DNA from: Isoetes taiwanensis
Taxonomy: Eukaryota; Streptophyta; Lycopodiopsida; Isoetales; Isoetaceae
DNA: 64,000 nt
Direction of reading: 5' to 3'
NCBI GenBank assembly: GCA_021234155.1
Contig: JAJEKV010000074.1
Location: forward strand, 3,238,532 to 3,302,531
Within the stretch, counting starts at the first letter, position 1. The number at the start of each line of letters is the position of its first letter. Both the position numbers and the translations under genes were made by a program. Below are positions 3,955-22,123 of the stretch, piece after piece. Below the pieces are notes generated by a model. The model saw nothing but the letters and a program-made list of their open reading frames with translations, made no database searches and had not been told where the DNA came from.

Positions 3955-5390
3955 CCTTAGACTTCCAGATATTATATTGTATGAATACGATATTATATCG
4001 ACGTTGATTAGTCGACTGTGACGATATACATCTACGAATATAGTATCTAATTTACTGCGGAACTGAGATGGTATAGCTATAAGCCACATATGAAGTAATA
4101 TTTGTTGATAGTCTATTGATTGACTACTTAAATTGGGATAGGATAGGCTTCCAGGTCGGATTGGAGCAGCATTGGACGCTTTTCACCGGTCAGAAAGCAG
4201 GAACCGAATTCTAAGTTGCAACATTCAAGCCCAAGAATTCTCGAGATCCAAAGAAGATGGATTTGAGTGATGTGGGAGCCTTAAAATGCTTAGTGGTTAA
4301 CCGATAGTTAGATCCTGAAGCCAGCCTCTATCTCGATAGGATCCGTAGTCATTCTTAGCGATAGGCTTAATTCTTACAACCTAAGAATGATAGCACTAAT
4401 AAAGCGAACCTAACCATGTATGATTAGGTAGATTAGAATAGGTGTATTCTATTATTTTCAAATGCATTGTGATGATGTTGTATCATTCTATGCCTAATTC
4501 TTTGTGTATCGGGAAGGGTAGAGACCCGTGAGCCTGGCGAAGTTGTATGATCCTAGCTTTGCTTCCATTACCCCACCACGCGGCCTCAGGCATAAGAGCC
4601 CGCCTCGGCCAGGGTGGCAGAGCTTAGACCGGGCCGACAAGGAGGTCTTGTCTAATCACAATTGATCCCTCCGCGCGTAGGCAACGCCGGAAACGCTAGA
4701 GCTATGGGCCTACTACCTCGCATCAAGGCTGGTATGGGCCTCGGCACCTCTGGGTGATGCCACCCTAGGGTTCAAGCCATAATGGTGCTGCTGGCTCTGT
4801 CGCTTCTGTGATTGCACAATCTGGAGGGGGGAGGATCCTCCCAACACGAGGGCCGGGAGAGATGCAACTCCAAGAGTGCAGAGCCCCTCCGCCATTCACC
4901 TTAACAAAGCTACGGGTCGTGCTCCAATACCTTTAGGCCTATGCGCACCAAGTAAGTATGTGGGGGGCGGATGGAGTGGACTACCCAACGGACCATGTTC
5001 CTATGACCAAATCCATTTGCCATGAATTACATGCATTGCTATCGGGAGACCCTAAGCCGTGGCCTATCCCCATAAGTCCGAGGCACGGGTAGGATTTCCC
5101 CATGTTATGTTGATAATAGCGTGTGTTGCAATCCTTGCGGTGATATGGTGGAGGTGGGTATGTTATTATTGATTGATGTCATGTGCTCATGTTTTGTTTT
5201 ATGCTCCCCAGTGACTAGGTCGATCCCAGGGAGCCGGGATGAATGACACGTCCATTCTTCCCTCAGTGTGTTCTTGGCCACCATCAGGCAGATGTTAGGT
5301 GGGCCGGCCTCATATCGCCGAAAGCGAGATGCTAGTTTGAGGGATGATCTCCGGTTTGACACGATGGGGCATCGTATATAGGCCTTTTCC
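3955..5390 (+). mobile_element. Inverted (plus-orientation) LTR of the gypsy family, diverged
   Basis: This is the reverse-complement counterpart of the LTR at 17524-19095. Matching landmarks include the start block (ttccagatattatattgtat followed by gaatacg), the gaattctaagttgcaac block (4208), the aggtagattagaatagg block (4422), the bgcctaattctttgtgtat block and the shared end ggtttgacacgatggggcat near 5356. The first ~280 bp are heavily diverged from the other copies. It appears to be a solo or remnant LTR of the same family in opposite orientation. Confidence 0.75.
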
Positions 5391-5935
5391 TTGTGATTGG
5401 CATGAATCTTGGAGGGGTGATCCCCTCACACTCAGGGCTGGGGAGATGCACCCGGTAGCATTAGCCCCTCGGCTATTCACCCGGCAGCGGGCTACGGTCG
5501 AGGGCTCCAATACCTTTCAGCCCTATGCGCAAAATTGCCTGCGGGAGGATGGATGGACTACCTGGCAGCGACCGTTCCTATACCCCGCCAAATCCATTTG
5601 CCATGAATTACATGCGCATTGCTATCACGGGACCCCAGCGGGTCGGTCTATCGCAAGTGCGAGCCGGGCAGGATTTCCCCATGTTATGTTGATGTCGATG
5701 TGTTGATCATTCGTGGCGCGTGATATGGTGGAGGTGGGTATGTTATTATTGATTGATGTCATGTGCTCATGTTTTGTTTTATGCTTCGCGTGGAGTGCGA
5801 TCAGGGAGGCGGGATGAATGACAAGCGTCCATTCTTCCCGTCGTGTTCTTGGCCACCATCAAGAGCGATGTTAGGTGGGCGGCCTCATATCGTGGCGAAT
5901 CTTTGGTTTGAGGATGATCTCCGGTTGTGATATGA
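5386..5935 (+). mobile_element. Second, partial plus-orientation LTR copy (3' third)
   Basis: From ttgtgattggcatgaatctt onward the sequence repeats the last ~550 bp of the preceding LTR. Shared blocks include ccatttgccatgaattacat, gatttccccatgttatgttg and gtattattgattgatgtc-like sequence. It again ends in the LTR terminus (ggttgtgatatgatgccc). It meets the minus-orientation LTR at 5936 in a palindromic junction, so three LTR pieces are stacked here. Confidence 0.7.
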
Positions 5936-7471
5936 TGCCCTGATCGCATACAACCGGAGTGATCAGATCAAACCAAAGATCATTCTTCGCCGCTGATGTG
6001 AGGCAGCCCAATCAACATCGCTCTTGATGGTGGCCAAGAACCCGACGGGAAGAATGGACGGGTTAAATATCCATCCCCGCCTTGATCACTCTTAGCCGCG
6101 AAGCGTAAACAAACATGAGCATGACATCAATCAATAATAACATACCCAATTTCAAGGGTGGTCCACCATATCCAAAGAGTCGCATCAACACATCAAGACA
6201 TCAACATAACATGGGGAAATCCTACCCGTGCCTCGTAACTTGGCGGGGGATAGATCGACGTTTGGGGTCTCCGTGATAGCAATGCAGCATTAATTCATGG
6301 CCATTATCAGCACGGTATAGAACATGGTCACAGAAGTCCACTCCATCCGGGCCTCCTGCATACTTTGCGATAGGCCGAAGGTATTGAGCCCCGGCCAGAG
6401 CCTCCCCGCCGTGAATAGCCGAGGGGCTATCGCATCGGGTTGCATCTTAAGCCCGATGAGGCGGGGAGGGGATCAACTCCCCTCCGAAAGGTTCATACCA
6501 ATCTGGCAAAGAAGCAGAGCCACCGTCGATATCGACTTGAACCCTTAGAAGATGGCGCATCACCCAAGAGGTGTTAGGCCCATACCCCGCCCTCGCGGCG
6601 ATTACGGGGTATTAGGCCCGGCTCACAACGCGTTCCCACGGCGTCGCTTCACGCGAGAGGATCAGCGCGGATTAGACAAGACCCTCCCTTGTCGGCCCGG
6701 TCTAGCTCCGCCACCCACAACCCGGTAGGGCTCTTATGCGGCCGCATTGGTGGGAATTAATGGGCTAAAACTAGGATCATACAACTACTTGGGCTCTGGG
6801 TCTCTACCCCCCTTCCCAATACACAAGGTGGGCATAGAATGATACAACATCATCTGTAGGCTGAAAATAATAGAATACACCTATTCTAATCTACCTAATC
6901 ATACATGGTTAGGTTCCTTTGTTAGTGCCTATCATTCTTAGGTTGTAGAATTAAGCCTATAGCTAAGAATGACTACGGATCCTATCGAATGAGAGCTGAA
7001 AACTTCGGATCTAACTATCGGGGATCAACCACTAACCCGCTTCTTGCCGGCTCCCACTCCTCTGAGGCGTCCATCTTTCTTTGGATCACCGAGATTGCCG
7101 GGCTTGAATCGTTTTGCAACTTAGGAATTCGGTTCCTACCTTTCATTGTTGGGGTAAAAGGCATCCAATGCTGCTCAATCCGACCTATAGGGCTGGAAAC
7201 GAAAGGGTTTTTCCCTTTTAGGTTTATGTCCCTTTTATCCCCATGAATTTAGGGCTGGTCCCTTTTGGTCAATGGGCCCTTGCCACATGGCAAAAGATAT
7301 TATATTCACATGTGGCCTTAACATGTGCAATATAATGGTTCACAGGGTCGTACCCTAGGGTACTACCCCTTTATGGTCGCCGTGTACATGTCGATGCGAG
7401 TGGGCATGTACTAGTGACTTGTCGATTATAATATACATTATTCATACCGTATATTATCCCGGAACGTCACA
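5936..7471 (-). repeat. 3' LTR of the gypsy element
   Basis: Same orientation and sequence as the 17524-19095 copy, with shared blocks such as cacctattctaatctaccta, ttccttttgttagtgcc-type sequence, acagggtcgtaccctagggt and the terminus ggaacgtcaca at 7461-7471. The minus-strand LTR therefore starts TGTGACGTTCC. Many 1-3 nt indels separate the two LTRs, which fits either age or base-level assembly error. Confidence 0.85.
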
Positions 7472-8255: not shown

Positions 8256-8700
8256 TCACTCACCCATCGGTTCGAATTCGACCACTTGGGTGACGAGCTG
8301 ACCCTTGCATTGCTCCATGAATTGTGGGTCTTTGCTTCTCAAGATCGATTGTAGTACCCACGTGGCGTCCTCCTTTGGTAAGTCGTCCATTTCACAAGGT
8401 CTTGGAGAAATTGAGATCTTTCGTCTTCTTATAGGATCGGTCGAGAAGAAGCTGGGGACAATCTCAAGTTGATCGTCCGTTAATTCCATGGCTTCGGTGT
8501 CTCCAATACTTCCTCCGGATTAGGGTGTGTTTCTTTAGGAGACTTCGTGAAAGACTCTATGGATCTTCGGTGTGCTAGTAAGTCCAATTTGTAGGCTTGG
8601 TTGCTCACTCTTTTGACAATTTTGAATGGACCAGCCCACCTTGGAGCAAGCTTCTTGCAATTGCCGATGCAGAGCTTTGCTTGTTTGACTTTTATCTTCA
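8256..8700 (-). pseudogene. Integrase C-terminal region with GPF/Y-type module
   Basis: Around 8680-8600 the minus strand reads LAPRWAGPFKIVKRVSNQAY, the GPF/Y (GPY) module that ends Ty3/gypsy integrases. A frame of 77 residues (8489-8256) follows and ends in EFEPMGE and a stop. It contains DATWVLQSILRSKDPQFMEQ, which I do not recognise. I see no canonical chromodomain aromatic cage pattern in this tail. Frames shift between the two parts. Confidence 0.75.
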
Positions 8701-8831
8701 GCCAAACATCGCCCCCCTACTTGGAACTCCCTCGTTGGTCGGTGCCGATCAGCTATGTCTTCTACGCGGCTTCTTTCGCTAGGAGGTATCCTCGCACCTC
8801 TTCAACCAATTCTTTGCATCTCGGCTAGCAT

Positions 8832-9248
8832 CTACTGGGATACTTCTACCTTGGACGCAGGATTGTGCCAAGTGTCTGGTGTCAAGCACTGATAGCCATA
8901 GTTGATCATAAATGGCGACATTTGGGATGACTCTTGCTTGGTGCTATTGTATGCAAACTCAACCAAGTAGATGAAGTCATCCCACTTTGATTGCTTGTTC
9001 CAGACATAATTCCGCAACATATCCTCAAGTATCCAATTGGTGCGCTCCGTCTGCCCATTTGTCTGAGGGTGATAAGTCGAGCTCATCGACAATTTCGTTC
9101 CGATGGTGCTGAAGAGATCCTGCCAGAATGCACTCATGAACTTCGAATCCCTATCAGAGATTATTTCTCTTGGCATCCCGTGGAGTCTAAAAATCTCCTT
9201 TGTGAATAACACAGCTGTGTCCAAAGCCGTGTCGCCTACAAGGCACAA
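8832..9248 (-). pseudogene. Integrase catalytic core (C-terminal half)
   Basis: Contains the second catalytic Asp in SDRDSKFMSAFWQDL and the catalytic Glu in HPQTNGQTERTN, the D,D(35)E arrangement of retroviral-type integrases. It overlaps the end of the preceding frame. The shared reading breaks at about 9240, after KMAHFVPC, by a frameshift, so integrase is interrupted in this copy. Confidence 0.9.
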
Positions 9249-9906
9249 AGTGCGCCATTTTCGACAATTTGTCGACTACGGCCATTAAGGCATCTTTGCC
9301 CCTTATGGTTCTAGGGAGCCCTGTAATGAAGTCCATGCTTATTATCTCCCACTTGGAGTTTGGTACTGGCAATGGCTCTAATGCTCCTGGAATTCGTAGT
9401 TGTTCCGCCTTGGTCTGCTGACATAGCTGACACTGGCGTATATAGCTTGCTATCTGCTTCTTCATGCCTGGCCAATAGTAACTACTTCTTATCTTGAAGT
9501 AGGTTTTCGTAAAACCTGCGTGGCCGGCTATTGGGTTGTTGTGGGTGTCATGGAGAATCAACCTTCTGACTCCGGATGATTCTGGCACACACAACTTATT
9601 TTTATGGTACAAGAGATTTCCTTCTTTCTTAAAATGTTTGAACGCTTCTCTCTCTTTGTCCGTTCTTGCCTGTTTGGAAAGGCTTGCCCATACTTCCTGG
9701 AAGTCCTTGTCCGTTGGCAACGTTTCTTCTATTTTCTTGTCAAACTCACTAGTGAGTGTTGATATGGCATTGCAGTGCACTCTTGTTGATAAGGGATGCC
9801 TTGACAGAGCATCTGCAACCACATTGAGTTTCCCTGGCTTGTACACAATCTCGAAGTCGTATTCTTCCAGGAACTCCATCCATCTCCTTTGCCTCAAATT
9901 CAACAA
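9187..9906 (-). pseudogene. RNase H end, integrase zinc finger and core start
   Basis: Begins with RRWMEFLEEYDFEIVYKPG and the linker VVADALSR, the usual end of RNase H. It then shows the HHCC zinc-binding domain (H...H in HDTHNNPIAGHAG, C..C in CQLCQQ) and the first catalytic Asp in SMDFITGLPRT. It lies in the same frame as the upstream RT/RNase H segment and is separated from it only by one TAA at 9910-9912, where CAA (Gln) is expected. Confidence 0.9.
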
Positions 9907-9909
9907 TGG

Positions 9910-11115
9910 TTACGTGAAGATGTACTGTAGACTCTGGTGGTCGGTATCTAATTGGAACTTCCTCCCCAATAGATAGTGTCTCCAGATCTTTAAAGCTCGT
10001 ACCACTGCCAATAGCTCCTGATCATGTGTCGGGTAGCGAGTTTCTGCGTCGTTCATCTTCCGTGAATCGTATGTTACGACTCTTTCTTCTTGCATTAAGA
10101 CTGCTCCCGTCGCGATCTTACTAGCATCAGTTGCAACTAACTTGTCCTTTTCTGGATCTGGCAATGTTAAGACGGGGGCGGTTGTCAAGGCTTCCTTCAA
10201 CTTCTCGAATCCTGCTTGAGCCTTCTTTTGCCAATGTGCCACCCAGTCTTTTATCTTTTCTGCCTTGGTGAGGTCCGTCAAAGGTGCTGCTATCTTAGCA
10301 AAGTTCTTGACAAACTTTCTATAATATCCTGCTAAGCCCAAAAAGCTTCTCACCTCGTGTATGTTCTTTGGTGCTGGCCATTCAATTACTGCTTGGATCT
10401 TTGCGGGATCGGTAGAGATGCCGTCTGCTGATATGACATGCCCCAAGTATTCCAATCTTTCGGTGGCGAAATGACATTTCGACAACTTCGCATAAAGCTG
10501 ATGCCTCCTCAGTTTCTCAAGTACCCTTCTCAAATGCTGAATATGCTCCTCTAGGGACTTGCTATACACCAAAATGTCATCGAAGAATACGATAACAAAT
10601 GTGTCAAGGAATTCTCGAAAGATATCATTCATGAGTCTCATGAACGTTGCTGGGGCATTAGATAGGCCAAATGGCATCACCGTGAATTCATAGTGACCAT
10701 ATCTTGTTCAGAACGCCGTTTTGTGAATATCTTCCTCCTTGATTTTGATTTGATGATGCCCAGACCTTAAGTCTATTTTGGAGAAGACTCTGGCACCTTG
10801 TAGCTGATCCATTAGGTCATCTGCTCTGGGTAAGGCATACTTGTTCTTGATTGTGTGTTTGTTTAATTGACGGTAGTCAATACACATCCTCAAGCTTCCA
10901 TCTTTCTTTTTGACGAATAAGATGGGGGCTCCGAACGGAGAGACACTAGGCCTTATGAACCCTAGGTCTAATAGCTCTTGCAATTGCTTCTTCAACTCTG
11001 ATAGTTCGTGAGTCGTCATTCTATATGGTGCCTTACTCGTGGGCTTAGTGCCTGGTTCGAGTGCAATTTCGCACTCCACTCCTCTATATGGCGGAAGCTC
11101 CTTGATTTCATCGGC
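9910..11115 (-). pseudogene. Reverse transcriptase and RNase H
   Basis: The RT start ([13 protein letters not shown], then [19 protein letters not shown]) lies at 11100-10708. The palm continues with [17 protein letters not shown] and the catalytic FFDDILVYS box (about 10590). RNase H residues are visible as Asp in TDASK, Glu in HDQELLAV and Asp in TDHQSL. One TGA near 10708 replaces an expected CGA (Arg), and the TAA at 9910 ends the segment. A frameshift near 11118 separates it from the protease frame. Both nonsense changes are C-to-T type. Confidence 0.92.
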
Positions 11116-11819: not shown

Positions 11820-13076
11820 CCTATTGGAAGCGCTTTTCTTTCGGAATGGAGTCGAGGAACTGCTTGACTGTCTTTGAGTAATTTGAGCCTCCCCCTTGTC
11901 CTTTATCTTTGAAGTTGACCTGCTTTTTCTTCTGGCTGTTTCCATTGATTTCCCGTGTATGGTGTCTTGGCAGGTGACGGACTGGTTGCTCTTGGGCTCT
12001 GGCGTCCATGCGCTTTTCCTTTGTCATACCTTTGCTTGGGTTCATTTTTGGGGGTCACGTCCTTGTAGGCTCCACGGCCTTTGCGCCCGCCCTCTCGATC
12101 ATGGGCGGGTTCGGGCTCTAACTATCTTCCAGTAGATCCTCATTCGGGCCCTCCACATAGCCTTCCACCGCTCTTCTCTCGCTGAGTTTCGGCACATACA
12201 ACCTCAACCTCATGAACTCTTCCGTATATTTCTGTACGGATTTGTTCCCCTGTTGCAACCCGTGGAATGCTTGCATCTGATGGCACTTGTGCTCTCTTGG
12301 GACATAGTGTCGTTTGAAGGCCCTTCGCGAACTTTGTGAACTGCACTTGTCTCGCTCATTCCATGGGCTTTGGCATAGCCCCTCCACCAAACCGGGGGCT
12401 GCCCTTTCAGGTTAGCGGTGGCTACTCTGCCCTTATCTTTATCCTTCATACCATAAGCATTTTCCGTATTTCGCTCATCTCGTCGTCTAGCCATGCCCGG
12501 CTTCCATCCCGATCGTTTTTGGGAAAACTGTTCCAGCTTCTTGGGCTTTTCCACACATTACTCAAGGCCGAAGTCGACCTTCTTCGGTAGTCGGTTTGAC
12601 TGGTTGTTTTCTTGGTTATTCTTTCTTCCCTTGAGGGTGATTCTTCTGTTTCATCCTCGGACTTCGAGCTTGAGTCCAGAATTTTGTCTGAATTTGGAGC
12701 TAGAAGATCTGCGCCGGCTCCTCTTTTTCTCTTTTCCCTTGTGCTGCGAACGGGCCTCTGGGGGCTACACATTCTGGTCTTGCCTGTTTCTTCCCCTGCC
12801 CGCCAACATGGTTTTTATTTCTTGCAGATCTGACCTCATCTGCGAAATTTCTTCCTCCGTCGATTGCATAATACTCTTGAATAGATTAGAAGGCTGGAAT
12901 TGTCTCTGATGGTGTCGATCGCCTTGGGCTTGGAATTCAAGATCGACATTCACGGCCGTTTCTAGCGCACATATTACATTAGCACCATTTATCATGAGTT
13001 CTTTTGTTGGTTGCATTGAGTGTTTGAATGATATGATTGTTAAGACAAAGATATCAAAAAGACATTTAAAATGCAA
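11820..13076 (-). pseudogene. gag polyprotein remnant
   Basis: The likely start lies near 13017, at MQPTKELMINGAN. Coiled-coil-like sequence follows (EEEISQMRSDLQEIKTML), then the capsid-type core spread over three frames (12554-12118) with HYVPREHKCHQMQAF and the GNKSVQKYTEEFMRL block that is diagnostic for Ty3/gypsy gag. A basic tail (12045-11821) has QKKKQVNFKDKGQGG. I could not find a clean CCHC knuckle. Several frameshifts make it non-functional. Confidence 0.8.
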
Positions 13077-13158: not shown

Positions 13159-14654
13159 TTACTGATGGGATGGGTGATCCTCAAGGAATTTCTTCACTTG
13201 GGCTGTACCCACTATACGTCCCAAGTTCCGGAGTATATCCCTTGATGATCCCCCTCTGATAGCTAATGCTAGCTCTTCGACCCGTCTATGTGCTGCTGTT
13301 ACTGCCAACCGACCTTGTCGAAGGTGAGGTACCGTGAAGTTAAAGATGCTCAAGGCTGTCCTACATGGTCGATCTTCTCTGATAGCCGGGCGTGCATGCC
13401 AAAACCAGATAGTGCTATCAGCATCTGGATGGCTTCCTCACCACGTGGGCTGAAGAGCTTATGAAATACTATGATTCTGCCGTCAGTTAGGAGCGGAAGA
13501 TAGTATTTCAGTGCTGCTCCGGGTATTCCTCCCCGTGCTCCCAAAGTAGACCTGTGCCTTGATACATGCTGATCAACCGGTACTTGCACTAGTTCTTCGT
13601 AATCGTGAAAGAGCGTTCGTACACTTGTTAAGCTCGTGGCTCTCCCTTGGAACGTTGGTAATGGTTCTTGTGAAGAAGATTCTGGTAGCAGTACTTTTGT
13701 TGTCTTCCCCCTTATTCCCATCTGCTCTTGGATTGCCAAAAACTCCTCTTCTGTAGGGAGTTGCTCTTCCGTCATCATGCCTCTGATGGTGCTATAAGCT
13801 TTGATATCTGACATGTTGTGTCCTGTGTATGTTGTTGGTTCCCTTACCTGGACTGAAAAGTCATCTGTTTCTTGGTCGATGAAATCCTCCAAGTCCGGCT
13901 GTTGCCGTAGAAGGTGAAGGAGTTCGTCGATGCGGTAGCCTCTGTCCCTGCATTCGGGAAGGTTTTTGATATCATTAAGAAACAAATACTCTTGCCCTTC
14001 AACTATAATCGGTGCTAGACTTGTTATTCCCAGCCCGATTGGTTGCGCTATCCTTGGTGTGCTCCTGTCAGCTTCGAATTGGGTAACATCCTATTCTGCT
14101 TCTCGGCGTTCTTCTTCTGGGTCCACTTCCATTTCTTCTTCGCTTTCTTCTTCTGTGTCTTCACTTTCTTCAGATGATTTTGCTATGGCCTCTTCGTACT
14201 CGAGCAGTAGTTGTTCGTCTGCCGCTGCATCCAAGGGTGTGACCTCTAGTGGCTGGATTGATGGTTCACCTACAACTGTTTGGGCCCTATAGAATAAATA
14301 CAGTACTAAGGCTGTATTGTAGGAGAAAAATCTCTTTCTATTGCTACTCAGGGTCATGTAATTGGGTAGGCGCTCGGTTCTATTCTGCAGTAGCTTGGCA
14401 ATGTTGGGTATATGATTAAGGGCTATTTGCAATGCAGTCTTTGGTACAAAGTACCCTATGCATGGGGGTACTTCTTGCAAGCTAGGAGCTACTTTCTCTT
14501 GGAATTCTTGCAGAACTTGCTGGTAGAAGGGGTTGGAGTTCAAGGTTGCCGACAAGTCAAATTCTTTATGGAAAACTTGAAATACTAGGTTAACATCTAC
14601 CTCAGCAACGTGGGGAGAGGCGCTGTACCAGCCGATGAAGGATGAAGTAGCCAT
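13159..14654 (-). pseudogene. ORF-B: extra ORF of the gypsy element, function unknown
   Basis: Starts at an ATG (14654) reading MATSSFIGWYSASPH and stays open to 14091. A single TAG follows, and the same frame continues (DVTQFEADRST...) to about 13390. A frameshift then leads to a last segment ending at 13159 in KKFLEDHPSHQ. Before the TAG the protein becomes strongly acidic (EESEDTEEESEEEMEVDPEEE). The segment after the frameshift, with ELALAIRGG and GRIVGTAQVKKF, weakly recalls histone H2B helix 3 and the C-terminal helix, but I would not assign it on this. It lies between the hairpin cluster at 14953-15237 and gag. The TAG may be decay or a readthrough site. Confidence 0.6.
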
Positions 14655-14952
14655 GAGGAGGGGCGTGCTGCCGATATCAAACAGAACTGGAAGCGCTTGA
14701 GGAGGCTGGAAGATCGCCTTGGGCGCAGGAGCAACTTTGTAGGTGTGGTTGAGAGGATATGGGGATATTTATAGGGATCTTGTACCCTAAAAAATTTAGG
14801 GTTTCTAAAACTTTTGGCATTTGGAGATGAAGTTGAATGTTTCTAGGTTAATTTGGGGCTAGAAATGGCTTGTACAATTTTAGGGTTCCAATGCAACAAA
14901 TTTCGACCGAATTGGATAGGTCTATCACAAGTTATGGACCTTGAAAGGTCGG

Positions 14953-15024
14953 ACCCCTCTAAGAGTGCGCGAGGAGGGTGTTAGGTTGGGACCTAAGTGG
15001 CCTTTGGCGCACTCTTGGAGGTGT
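14953..15024 (-). repeat. 72-nt double-stem hairpin, copy 1
   Basis: An outer stem joins cctctaagagtgcgc to gcgcactcttggagg (one mismatched pair). An inner stem joins ttaggt to acctaa across a 4-nt loop (tggg). It lies 213 nt from copy 2, between ORF-B and ORF-A. Confidence 0.85.
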
Positions 15025-15165
15025 TGGCCTACCTATGCCTAATGGGTGCCAAGAACAAGTTTAAAAAGGTGAATTCCTACTTATTTTCTTGTTTACTGCA
15101 GGTTTCTTTGGTTATTTACTTCATTTGGAGCAGGTAAGTGGCCAATCAAGGGCCCAGTTGGCTGG

Positions 15166-15237
15166 ACCCCTCTAAGAGTGCGCGAGGAGGGGGTTAGGTT
15201 GCGACCTAACTGTGCTCTGGCGCACCCTTAGAGGTGT
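15166..15237 (-). repeat. 72-nt double-stem hairpin, copy 2
   Basis: Same architecture and exactly the same length as copy 1. The inner loop is tgcg. It ends about 140 nt downstream of the ORF-A stop in the sense orientation. Confidence 0.85.
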
Positions 15238-15375
15238 TGGTCAAAATTGGACATTTGCTCCTTAACTACTATTTGTACTTATTCTAATGCACATTTAAAC
15301 AACTATATATCCTTTTTATTCAAAATTTTCATACATTACATATAAGCCTGTTAGTTACAAAAAGTAGCTTCTGTT

Positions 15376-16554
15376 CTATCTATCTGTCCTCTTGATGGAT
15401 TTAGCCAGTCTCATATCCTTTGGTTGAAGTGTGACCCTTTTTGCATGGAGCGTGCACGCCAGTGAATCCTCGAAGTGTTGCACGACTTCCATCTCTGCTG
15501 CTTCTTGTAAAGCGAGTAACATGTCGTTAGTTACTCGCTTGTTGGGGTCGAACTCCCACAAAATTTCTCGGACGAACCTCTGGAATGCAGCTCTGGGAAT
15601 CAGAAATCCGTAGCTCCATTGGAAGTGGCGGATTTCTCGCAGGGCTCTCGCAAAAGGGGAGTCTTGGGATCTCTTCATAGGTTTCTTCGGGGGCTCCGGG
15701 AGCTCTGGTGGAAGTATCAGCTGGAATGGCCGCCCTCCTTCGACATACCTACCCCTGCAGGTGCCTCGTGGTATCAACGATTAACTTCGGCGTGCATCTT
15801 TTTGTATATCGTGTAGTCTGCTAGCTCCTTCTTGTATCTCCTCTCGGGCCCTAGAGTGTAAGAGTCCCTGGCCGTCTTGTTTGCCTTCTTTGCGGTTGCT
15901 TTCTCCTCACCTAGCTTCTTTGCCTCTTGCCATTCTGAAAACGGTGGAGGTAGCGGCGGGGGTAGCTCAACTTGCGTCTCTGCCTGGTCTTGGGCTGGGA
16001 GTGGGTCCTCCTCTTGGGGTTCATCTGTATCAGGAAGAGGGTTCTGCTGCTTTTGGGAGGATTCTCCAGTCCCTAGAAGTACTTCTTCCAAAAAGTCCTG
16101 CAGATTACCGGATTCCTCAGACGAGGATGGAGGTTGGTCGCCTTCGTTGGATTCGTAGATGGCGGCCCGGCGTGAGGTCCCTCCCTTTCTTGGGCCGGGG
16201 TTCTTCTGTCATTACCCTTTTTTCTTTCCTGTCAGGTTCCTCCCTATTCTTTGTCCTCTGCTCTCGCCATTGGTCGTCTTCCCCTTCTGCAGCTTCTTCT
16301 TCTGCTTTCCTTCTCTCCTTCTCCTCCTTTCTCTTGGCCTTTTCTTCCCTTCTCCTTGCCTTTTCTTCTTTCTTCCTGGCTTTTTCTTCTTTCCTGCGCG
16401 TCTTTTCCAAGTTCCGATAGTACCTAGGTCGCCTCTCCATGTCGGCCTTCAGTTTCTCATCGGCATCTTTGAGCTTACGTTGTTGGCGAGGACTTGGTAT
16501 TTGGGCTTATCATCCTTCTTGGGCTTACGGGTGATTGCGTTTTGTTCTAGCCAT
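15376..16554 (-). CDS. ORF-A: histone H3/CENH3-like protein with long tail, inside the gypsy element
   Basis: The region starts with an ATG at 16554 encoding MARTKRNHP; MARTK is the start of plant histone H3 and CENH3. A frame break at 16527 is followed by a basic stretch KPKKDDKPKYQVLANN. A second break leads into KLKADMERRPRYYRN and a highly charged coiled-coil of RKEEKARKKEEK-type repeats (16440-16250). Next are an acidic and proline-rich linker (ELPPPLPPPFSEW, about 15965) and, after a third break at about 15780, the 133-residue frame with the histone fold. Small frameshifts separate the pieces, so this copy could not make one protein unless these are base errors. In the host, H3 packages DNA and CENH3 marks centromeres; what a retroelement-borne version does is unknown. 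It shares strand and position with the element and is flanked by its hairpin repeats. Confidence 0.8.
15379..15645 (-). other. Complete histone H3 fold domain
   Basis: All H3 elements are present without gaps. Helix N is ALREIRHFQ; helix 1 is AAFQRFVREILWEF; loop 1 is DPNKRVTN; helix 2 is MLLALQEAAE to FEDSLAC; loop 2 is HAKRVTL; helix 3 is PKDMRLAKSIKR. Counted by eye against canonical plant H3, about 43 of 86 positions are identical with no gap. LREIRHFQ and the LIP before helix 1 resemble CENH3 more than canonical H3 (which has REIRKYQ and LIRKLP). Loop 1 has the canonical H3 length, whereas plant CENH3 usually has extra residues there. The frame is uninterrupted to its stop. Confidence 0.88.
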
Positions 16555-16770: not shown

Positions 16771-16842
16771 ACCCCTCCAAGAGTGCGCGAGAAGGGGGTT
16801 AGGTCCGGACCTAACTGGCCCCTGGCGCACCCTTAGAGGTGT
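16771..16842 (-). repeat. 72-nt double-stem hairpin, copy 3
   Basis: Same architecture, inner loop ccgg. The changes in the outer stem (t to c at two places) remain G-U compatible in RNA of the element's sense strand. It lies 5' of the ORF-A ATG. Confidence 0.85.
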
Positions 16843-16983
16843 GGTCATGTTCTGCCCTAAACGTATCCAATTTACACTAATGAACATGCGTTTCCCACTA
16901 ATGTAAGTATTCTAAGCTCAATTCTACCATTTATTTCACACTTTGAGTTAGTTTTGAGTAATGTTTGAAGTCACTTTTAGGGG

Positions 16984-17055
16984 ACCCCTCCAAGAGTGCG
17001 CGAAAAGGGTGTTAGGTCGTGACCTAACTATGCTCTGGCGCACTCTTAGAGGTGT
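16984..17055 (-). repeat. 72-nt double-stem hairpin, copy 4
   Basis: Same architecture, inner loop cgtg, 213 nt from copy 3. The sequence between copies is AT-rich and not obviously conserved. Confidence 0.85.
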
Positions 17056-17197
17056 TGCTCTAAGTTGACTTTCATTTAGTGTTTTTCTGTGTTTTAACAT
17101 ACAAGTTTAGCTAATTCGAACTTTTTAGATGGGATTTCATCTTTTATTTTACCATTTGGGGTACTTATGGCCGAGTTTCTAGGGTTCACCTGGGGTG

Positions 17198-17269
17198 ACC
17201 CCTCTAAGAGTGCGCGAGAGACTCATTAGGTATGGACCTAACATGCTTCTGGCGCACCCTTGGAGGTGT
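17198..17269 (-). repeat. 72-nt double-stem hairpin, copy 5
   Basis: Same architecture, inner loop atgg, 214 nt from copy 4 and about 240 nt from the primer-binding site. It is the copy nearest to the 5' LTR and the most diverged in the arm between the stems. Confidence 0.85.
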
Positions 17270-17510
17270 CGGCCGAAAGTGCCTGAAAATTTATTAGGCT
17301 CTCTTAGGTGCTTATCCTCTATTTGCTCTATCTTACTTATGTTCTCTAATTATCCTAATTCTAGATAATTTCGAACTCTACCCCTGGAAGAAAAATTTTC
17401 CCACTACTTGCGGTTTGTGCTTGGGCTTTTATCTCCAAGACTGAATGTCTAGATTAGTTAGTTCCTATAGAATTTCGGTTAGTGCTCGATCCTGGTCTGC
17501 CAAGATCAGA

Positions 17511-17522
17511 GCTCTGATACCA
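17511..17522 (-). other. Primer-binding site (initiator tRNA-Met)
   Basis: The minus strand reads TGGTATCAGAGC, the standard plant LTR-retrotransposon primer-binding site complementary to the 3' end of initiator tRNA-Met. It lies immediately inside the 5' LTR. This fixes the element's orientation and its left/right roles. Confidence 0.9.
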
Positions 17523-17523
17523 T

Positions 17524-19095
17524 TAGACGGCCCGGCTCATATAATCGATGCCCCGATCATTATACAAACCGGAGATCATCCCTCAAACCAAACATCGCTT
17601 TTCGGTGATGTGAGGCCGCCCACCTAACATCGGGCTCTTGATGGTGGCCAAGAACTCGACGGGGAAGAATGGACGTGTCATTCATCCCGTCTCCCTCGAG
17701 GATAAAATTCTAGCTGCGGGCGTAAACAAAACATGAGCACATGACATCAATCAATAATAACATACCCACCTCGAAGGGTGGTCCACCATATCACAAAGAT
17801 TTGCATCAACACATCAAGACATCAACATAACATGGGGAAATCCTACCAGCTCGGACTTATGGGGATAGGCCCGACGGCTTGGGGTCTCCGGATAGCAATG
17901 GGCATAATTCATGGCAAATGGATTTGGCTGGTATAGGAACATGGTCGTTGGGTAGTCCACTCCATCCGCCCCTCCTGTGCATACTTTGCAGATAGGCTGA
18001 AAGGTATTGGAGCCTGGCCGTAGCCTGCCGGGTGAATAGCCAGAGGGGCTACTGCTACTGGGTTGCATCTCCCCAGCCCCGATGAGGCAGGAGGGGATCA
18101 CTCCCCCTCCAGAAGGTTCATGCCAATCACAAAGCAGCCAGAGCCACCGCCGATACGACTTGAACCCCTAGAAGATGACGCATCACCCAAGAGGTGTCGA
18201 GCCCATACCCTGCCCTCACGCAGTGCCAGGGTATTAGGCCTGGCTCACAACGTTCCCCGACCGTCGCTACGCACGAGAGGGATCAACTGTGATTAGACAA
18301 GACCTCCCTTGTCAGCCGGTCTAGCTCCGCCACCCACAACCAGGCGGGCTCTTATGCACAGGCCGCATTAATTGGGAATTAATGGGCTAAAACTAGGATC
18401 ATACAACTACTTGGGCTCTGGGTCTCTACCCCCCCTTCCCAATACACAAGAGTGGCGCATAGAATGATATAACATCATCACAACAGAACTGAAAATAATA
18501 GAATACACCTATTCTAATCTACCTAATCATACATGGTTAGGTTCCTTTGTTAGTGCCTATCATTCTTAGGTTGTAGGAGTCGCCTATAGCTAAGAATGAC
18601 TACGGATCCTATCGAATGAGAGCTGAAAACTCGGATCTAACTATCGGATCAACCACTAACCCGCTTCTTGGTTGGCTCCCACTCCTTTGAAGGCGTCTAT
18701 GCTGCTGGATCTCGAGATTGCTGGGCTTGAATCGAGCTGCAACTTAGGAATTCGGGTTCCTCTGCTACTGTTCAGGCGAAAAGGCGTCCAATGCTGCTCC
18801 AATCCGACCTATAGGGGCTGGAAACCGAAAGGGTTTCCCTTTTTAGGGTTTATGTCCCTTTTATCCCCACGAATTTAGGGCTGGTCCCTTTTGGTCAATG
18901 GGCCCTTGCCACATGGCAAAAAGATATTATATTCACATGTGGCCTTAACATGTGCAATATAATGGTTCACAGGGTCGTACCCTAGGGTACTACCCCTTTA
19001 TGGTCGCCGTGTACATGTCGTCTGAGTTGACATGTACTAGTGACGTGTCAGTATAATATACGTATTCATACCATATATTATCCTGGAACGTCACA
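17524..19095 (-). repeat. 5' LTR of the gypsy element
   Basis: About 1.57 kb. The minus-strand start TGTGACGTTCCAGG lies at 19095 and the other end abuts the primer-binding site at 17523. It is unusually long but otherwise a normal paired LTR with the copy at 5936-7471. In the sense orientation it would hold the promoter and polyadenylation signal; I could not place these with confidence. Confidence 0.85.
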
Positions 19096-21499: not shown

Positions 21500-22123
21500 A
21501 TTAATGGACATGAGTCAAGCGCATACTAATCTTCCATTTTATACAGAGCTTGGGCAGGTTTTTCTCCATGTAGAGGATGCAATTGCATCCCTGTACAACC
21601 TGAAAGAAGAGAAGAAACAGTGGATTAAATCATCGTATGCTGGATCTTATTTGGCAGCATTCCAAATCCTCTGGAATGCAGATTGTGCATTTTATTGGGC
21701 TTGGAGAAATTTGGCAAGGGCGATTGGCAGAGTATTTCCAGGAATTTTGTGATTTCTCGAACACCAACACAAGTAGCCAGTCATGCACAGAAATATTTTA
21801 TTCGGCTAAACTTCATCAACAAGGATAAGAGACGGACTAGCATCCATGACATAACTAGTGTTAACACCAGGCAACAGAGTCACCCGTACATTATAGGTCA
21901 AGCAAATAATATGTCATCATCTATGAGTTCTCCAGGTGTGGGTATGTACATGAACCCGATGATGCAGCCCATTGCACCAACAGTGACTTCTTCAGGGCCC
22001 ATTCCTTCAGCTATTCACAATTCCCAGTTTGTCCATTTTGCAAGAGCAATGCCTAACCATGATGCGAATATGCCGCCACCAATTTCTTATTCTGTGCCAC
22101 AGCAAGCAATGCACCATGGCTGA
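21500..22123 (+). pseudogene. SHAQKYF-type R1-MYB (DIVARICATA-like) remnant
   Basis: The frame 21683-22123 reads [20 protein letters not shown] and then [19 protein letters not shown] and [15 protein letters not shown]. This is the second MYB repeat and SHAQKYF signature of plant DIV-like transcription factors, which bind I-box-type DNA. A Met/Pro/Ser-rich C-terminal region ends in MHHG and a stop. The first helix is damaged: where PWTEEEHRLFL is expected it reads PLECRLCIL, so the first core Trp is missing. No upstream exon with the N-terminal SANT-like repeat is found in frame. It could be a real last exon with a sequencing error, but a pseudogene is more likely. Confidence 0.7.

Follow-up and report, generated by a model that had tools for sequence, protein, structure and literature searches.

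Ty3/gypsy retrotransposons of Isoetes taiwanensis carry a histone H3 gene between the primer-binding site and gag

LTR retrotransposons in the genome of Isoetes taiwanensis carry a gene with clear homology to histone H3, which lies between the primer-binding site (PBS) and gag and is present in high copy number. In the copies examined, the tail tip and the histone core of the encoded protein have low dN/dS. Judging from the sequences, the gene was probably captured from the host, and its product would work as an H3 variant in nucleosomes. One such element lies in the window, that is, the whole stretch of 64,000 nucleotides analysed here (positions 3,238,532 to 3,302,531 of contig JAJEKV010000074.1, assembly GCA_021234155.1).

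In the window, the H3 histone core is held by an open frame of 133 aa at 15376..15777 on the minus strand. Pfam Histone (PF00125) matches residues 31-126 of this frame with E=1.2e-21 (profile positions 24-119 of 122), and PDB H3.3 aligns with residues 38-129 without a gap (E=1.8e-20). Throughout, the best matches of the element frames are H3 and not other histones, both with Pfam Histone and among PDB entries, where H3 chains rank at the top. These searches bear out an earlier note on this DNA, which had described an uninterrupted frame with an H3 fold and proposed the Pfam Histone search. Its estimate by eye of about 50% identity to plant H3 agrees with the 49% found between host H3 and the 87-aa core of intact sisters of the same subfamily. 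The note had also set the gene at 15379-15645; the H3 core does lie there, but this extent is too short, and comparison with sister copies gives a remnant of the full H3 gene that spans 15376..16554 (-). The remnant has an ATG at 16554, an early stop and a decayed tail (read by eye), an insert in broken frames, and an intact core. By this comparison, the window frame forms the 3' end of a gene of ~394 aa between PBS and gag, present here as a decayed copy. Because of the breaks that this copy has upstream of its core, the N-terminus must be read from other copies.

The carrier in the window is an old, broken element, with gag and pol split among several frames. All of its parts lie on the minus strand, and the H3 frame sits between PBS and gag on the strand of gag-pol, as the note had claimed. 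The 5' LTR (17523..19095) starts with TGTGACGTTCC at 19095 and ends before the PBS (TGGTATCAGAGC, 17511..17522), which we take to be of the initiator-Met tRNA type. Downstream of the H3 gene follow a remnant of a second extra gene without known family, here called ORFb (13162..14654), and the gag region (12073..13076; Retrotrans_gag, E=9.5e-10). The reverse transcriptase and RNase H (RT/RH) region (9475..11019) and the integrase region (8495..9465) are, like gag, broken into frames. A remnant of a chromodomain-like motif, DLPKEDATWV, was read by eye at 8355..8384, and the 3' LTR (5934..7471) is ~85% identical to the 5' LTR. Paired LTRs, a tRNA-type PBS, and an integrase in last place, as in the Ty3 order, are the Ty3/gypsy features present; Pfam gag, RVT_1, RNase H, and rve were detected in the elements, and their order was read in the window and in other copies. 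Two LTR-like pieces in opposite orientation (4153-5379 and 5391-5936) adjoin the 3' LTR as nested or rearranged insertions. On the other side of the element, a possible host gene at 21683-22123 (+) encodes a SHAQKYF motif, presumably that of MYB-like plant proteins, as read by eye. Rfam gave nothing at gathering scores, and ARAGORN found no tRNA.

The H3 gene of the window is also flanked by hairpin repeats with predicted energies of -32 to -44 kcal/mol. Three strong repeats of ~75-85 nt lie upstream of it (16771-16847, 16982-17067, and 17197-17274, all on the minus strand), and two further ones lie downstream (14951-15027 and 15164-15240, also on the minus strand). Four or five copies occur at like places in 14 of 20 sister loci that were fetched (subfamilies A and B, L009-L022), and none were found in the other six (L023-L028). 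As a guess, these repeats might direct internal initiation or the processing of RNA.

The sister loci come from a search of 1,658,258,908 bases on 1110 contigs with the 133-aa query. This gave 8628 first-look candidates, 150 of which were scored; all 150 match the query at E <= 6.4e-48, and they are spread over very many contigs. Twenty loci of 10 kb (L009-L028), chosen mostly for long open frames, cover three classes of identity to the window: A (~88% and more), B (~80%), and C (~70%). A complete H3 ORF of 379-400 aa is present in 19 of them, the start being missing in L028. The flanks on the same strand hold ORFb-like sequence in 17 loci (the signal is weak in L023), gag in 15, and RT in 13, although the L025 stretch reaches less far downstream than the others. 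Upstream, the LTR type of the window is found in 18 of the 20 loci (partial in four of these), and the exact 12-base PBS in 13. The gene order is thus LTR, PBS, H3 gene, ORFb, gag, RT/RH, and integrase. Because LTR, ORFb, gag, and RT recur around other copies, a single-locus artefact, hits confined to ordinary H3 genes, and an assembly break between LTR and gag are excluded. Within this genome, the many hits with the same LTR and gag-pol flanks that the note had named as support were therefore found.

In subfamilies A to C, the protein consists of an H3 tail tip, a K-, R-, and E-rich insert of ~260 residues, and an H3 core. Ordinary H3 has a length of ~135 aa with an unbroken tail, unlike the 379-400 aa found here. 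Of the 19 complete ORFs, 13 start with the exact sequence MARTKQTARK, and L018-L023 have one or two changes each in the tip; these comprise all three B copies (L020, L021, and L022) as well as L018, L019, and L023. When a profile of 15 proteins (A2) is aligned with PDB H3, the match begins at G12-G13 and extends almost to the end (E=5.3e-29), and the tip appears as a separate weak stretch, which places the insert between about residues 10 and 12 of H3. The motif EGGRP at the junction of insert and core is invariant in all 15 rows of the profile and is changed in two copies outside it, L021 and L051. The latter represents a further subfamily, E.

Starts of this kind are common in the genome. 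A degenerate MARTKQTARK pattern occurs at 1051 sites, compared with none for the reversed pattern used as a control. A canonical H3 query, for which 150 of 9022 first-look candidates were scored, matches 15 places at 96-98% identity, after which the next matches have 71-86%. Since 1051 sites stand against 15 places of ordinary H3, nearly all tail starts do not belong to intact ordinary H3 genes. Among 100 listed tail sites, a comparison of lists identifies five as ordinary H3 genes among the 15, and six others have one of the 150 core matches 0.7-0.9 kb downstream of them on their own strand. Two tail sites picked irrespective of a core are followed by an insert-like stretch and then by decayed fragments of the H3 core with stops and frame breaks.

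The remaining 135 of the 150 scored canonical-H3 matches, at 71-86% identity, define a further class, D. By hand count, an open frame of at least 400 aa without a stop is present in 49 of them. Ten long loci were fetched as a sample (L039-L048), and all ten encode a protein of ~412 aa with a near-canonical H3 core and an N-terminal part unlike that of A to C. This part (~250 aa plus a linker) matches no Pfam family, whereas the core matches Pfam Histone with E of about 1e-41 in both loci scanned and is 85% identical to host H3 in L046. By hhalign, the A2 profile and class D are related mainly over the core (99.6%). A structure model of class D has low confidence (pLDDT 41.7). Class D proteins are without the ARTKQTARK tip; their start, MA(I/N/T)(T/I)KS, may at a guess be a worn tail tip. 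Two D loci extended downstream (L049 and L050) contain ORFb-like sequence (partial in L050), an ORF of 161-162 aa, RT/RH, and integrase; gag is present in L049 and was not found in L050. In L050, RT/RH and integrase are open frames of 515 and 337 aa, and a Pfam Chromo domain (E=4.9e-9) follows the integrase in a shifted frame. Given RT/RH, integrase, and the Chromo domain at D loci, class D is carried by a related chromovirus. The same chromodomain in L050 is the basis on which the carrier in the window, where a remnant is present, is assigned to the chromoviruses.

The cores of A to C share 48-53% identity with host H3. A tree was built from 32 chosen cores over 87 columns, with CENH3 represented by two hand-typed rows and by no host sequence. 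In this tree, subfamilies A, B, C, and E form one clade (100/99). Class D forms another (100/100), which stands beside host H3 (90/87, below the program's star). In addition, some D copies have E at position 77, as host H3 does. Together, the clades and the shared residue suggest that capture took place twice, or once long ago and was followed by evolution at greatly differing rates. The note had left the source as host H3 or CENH3, and a CENH3 origin is not supported here. If the gene derived from CENH3, it might take the element to centromeric chromatin, and the A-C cores, which read EIRHFQ..LIPRA.F, presumably look CENH3-like to the eye. However, the longer loop 1 of CENH3 is absent, the element cores aligning with H3 without a gap and with a loop 1 of H3 length, and neither element clade joins the two hand-typed CENH3 rows. 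Moreover, class D is plainly close to host H3, and a spread of scored copies over very many contigs does not fit centromere aiming, which we regard as very improbable.

Residues that H3 uses in the nucleosome are kept to different degrees. Lists of such residues, applied to five A-C representatives and to class D, give 8/9 positions of the H3-H3' interface kept in A to C and 9/9 in D. DNA contacts are kept at 8-10 of 16 positions in A to C and at 15 of 16 in D, and the H4-facing positions are unchanged at 10-13 of 22 and at 20 of 22, respectively. Thus, class D looks fit for nucleosomes by its sequence. In A to C, pairing with H4 may be altered, because only 10-13 of the 22 H4-facing residues are unchanged and R63 is lost; these proteins might still pair with H4, though differently, or have become specialised in part.

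The pattern of substitutions was examined by Nei-Gojobori dN/dS on copies picked by score and open frames, a choice that lowers dN, with the insert of the same ORFs as internal control for tip and core. In subfamily A (11 copies, 55 pairs), dN/dS is 0.028 for the tip, 0.148 for the variable insert, 0.054 for the pre-core, and 0.047 for the core; saturation of dS affects 7 of the tip pairs and 4 of the pre-core pairs. In subfamily C (6 copies, 15 pairs, 3-9 of them saturated), the corresponding values are 0.053, 0.267, 0.092, and 0.077. Subfamily B, with three copies and few changes, gives 0.17 for the core and 0.46 for the insert; its tip has nonsynonymous changes only, which speaks against selection on the tip in B. 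For eight of the ten D copies (L039 and L044 excluded), the values are 0.10 for the N-terminal domain, 0.17 for the linker, and 0.025 for the core. RT/RH in A has a dN/dS of 0.32, which is no fair yardstick because its frames were not picked for openness. Conservation of the tip is not an effect of how copies were retrieved, since the tip is absent from the query.

These values bear on whether the tip alone could be the functional part. A free ARTKQTARK tip, or an H3-like chaperone surface, might act as a decoy that soaks up writers and readers of H3K4 and H3K9 and so weakens silencing, without entry into nucleosomes. This would suit the tip of subfamily A, which is the best conserved part outside the core (0.028) beside a fast-changing insert, and the 1051 sites that begin with the tip. 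Nevertheless, a tip decoy needs no core, yet the core is kept (0.047 in A and 0.025 in D); class D is without such a tip, and each of the three B copies has an altered one. A decoy role is therefore rather unlikely.

Capture of host genes by retroelements is common, and many copies of this gene have decayed, as would be expected of a functionless host fragment copied along with the element. Such a passenger is hardly to be reconciled with the low dN/dS of tip and core, with presence across subfamilies A-C and E and class D, or with the B element in L020. This element (L020:78-10000) has a 5' LTR from 78 to ~1506 and a 3' LTR that begins at 9142 and runs to the end of the stretch. Between the two, the sole sense ORF longer than 106 aa is an intact H3 gene of 394 aa with one tip change, and no gag, pol, or ORFb was detected. 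Neither were ORFb, gag, and pol detected in the fetched stretches of any of the three B copies. By its sequence, L020 resembles a non-autonomous element in which the histone was retained, and we give the passenger explanation next to no weight.

ORFb, of ~503 aa, lies between the H3 gene and gag and is intact in L013 (4328-5836, 503 aa) and L026 (3985-5496, 504 aa); the class D locus L049 has ORFb-like sequence at 5793-6806. A protein search in which 8000 candidates were scored found one relative, P0125, on a short contig, with 47% identity over the whole length. No Pfam or PHROG family scored above the cut-off, where only weak sub-threshold rows appeared, and IMG/VR contigs contained no relative. 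Of two PDB searches, one returned nothing and the other two rows at E=0.94, neither a convincing relative. Foldseek, queried with a model of low confidence (pLDDT 52.3), gave 45 rows at E <= 10 and no match at E <= 0.001, and hhalign showed no relation between ORFb and the class D profiles.

The place of the H3 gene as the first ORF after the PBS could also point to a role in the particle. A basic protein with a histone fold might coat cDNA or RNA there, or aid nuclear entry, without becoming chromatin. The K, R, and E of the insert and the partly kept DNA contacts are consistent with this; however, neither packaging nor import needs the H3-H3' interface and the exact tip, and nothing in this analysis links the protein to particles. 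We consider a packaging or import aid improbable and return to the nucleosomal variant.

Fold, gene order, tip count, dN/dS, interface, class D core, and the copy without gag-pol agree in support of this explanation; the altered H4-facing residues of A-C, the changed tips (B, L018, L019, and L023), tip-less class D, the choice of copies by score and open frames, many decayed copies, and the low confidence of the structure models of class D and ORFb count against it. The proposed course begins with a chromovirus lineage that would have captured a host H3 gene and kept its tail tip and core, while an insert of ~260 aa expanded between roughly tail residues 10 and 12. The conserved core would pair with host H4, and the product would most likely enter H3-H4 tetramers or nucleosomes in this way, be it on DNA of the element itself, at the sites of insertion, or at both. 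There, K4 and K9 of the tip could still be recognisable to host enzymes and readers, with the element-specific insert as a payload; in A-C and E, the tip would offer K4 and K9, but the K14-K36 stretch of a normal tail would be missing. The benefit would most likely be control over the reading or silencing of the element's chromatin. As judged by eye, the chromodomain of L050 presumably misses part of the aromatic cage, which speaks against the idea that the integrase simply binds a methylated tip. More broadly, and tentatively, LTR retrotransposons may have evolved their own H3 variants, perhaps in two captures (A/B/C/E and D), that build or mark nucleosomes with an element-specific domain. 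With the K4/K9 tip in A-C and E, the element would then decide how its chromatin is read, and a derivative without gag-pol, in which no intact gene other than the histone is evident, would have been kept.

Several known systems share parts of this arrangement. Plant chromoviruses are Ty3/gypsy elements with a chromodomain after the integrase, and the present elements have the same LTRs, PBS, gag, RT, RNase H, and integrase, with the Chromo domain after integrase in L050. They differ in having two extra genes (H3 and ORFb) between PBS and gag, and in the hairpin repeats that flank the H3 gene of A and B copies. Tat/Ogre Ty3/gypsy elements, which are not known to have a chromodomain, also have an extra ORF upstream of gag; that ORF is not known to encode a histone. 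Host H3 and its variants share the tail tip and the histone core, which in class D is 85% identical, whereas here ~260 aa are inserted in the tail (A-C) or another N-terminal part is present (D), the A-C core is 48-53% identical, and the gene belongs to a mobile element. CENH3 likewise has a diverged H3 core and a changed, longer N-terminus, but differs in loop 1 and in the tree. Viral histones and H3-tail mimics, such as bracovirus H4, giant-virus histones, and influenza NS1, are also parasite genes that copy host histone features; in contrast, the carrier here is an LTR retrotransposon of very high copy number, and it combines the H3 tip with the core.

Database matches to the intact 394-aa ORF (8000 candidates scored) are mostly repeated ordinary H3s, P0125 apart; the insert is in none of the eleven examined among the best 120 of 1200 matches, from a database that possibly does not cover host proteins. 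With residues 205-394 of this ORF, the 8 matches among 621 candidates are H3 proteins without the insert, again from a database that may not cover the host. Four unrelated H3 proteins of 445-475 aa on ENA contigs (P0128-P0131) have a long N-terminal part, an internal MARTK(R/K/Q)TARKK, and an H3 core; by sequence they are another unusual H3 family. In literature of partial coverage, no earlier report of an LTR element encoding a histone was found, and the main texts of the Isoetes taiwanensis (PMC8566536) and Isoetes sinensis (PMC10541799) genome papers contain the word "Histone" 0 times. The carrier, a chromovirus, is of a known kind, and no description of its histone cargo was seen in the literature covered.

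Transposons are normally the targets of histone marks, and here transposons carry a histone. It seems that a selfish element has appropriated a portion of the host chromatin machinery. If the product does enter nucleosomes, it would be a natural histone variant controlled by a selfish element, one whose tail tip selection has preserved although the protein otherwise changes fast. Whether selfish DNA can write its own chromatin state then becomes open to direct test. The large number of diverged H3 cores also lends itself to studies of structure and function, and these cores may be a source of new histone variants for the host.
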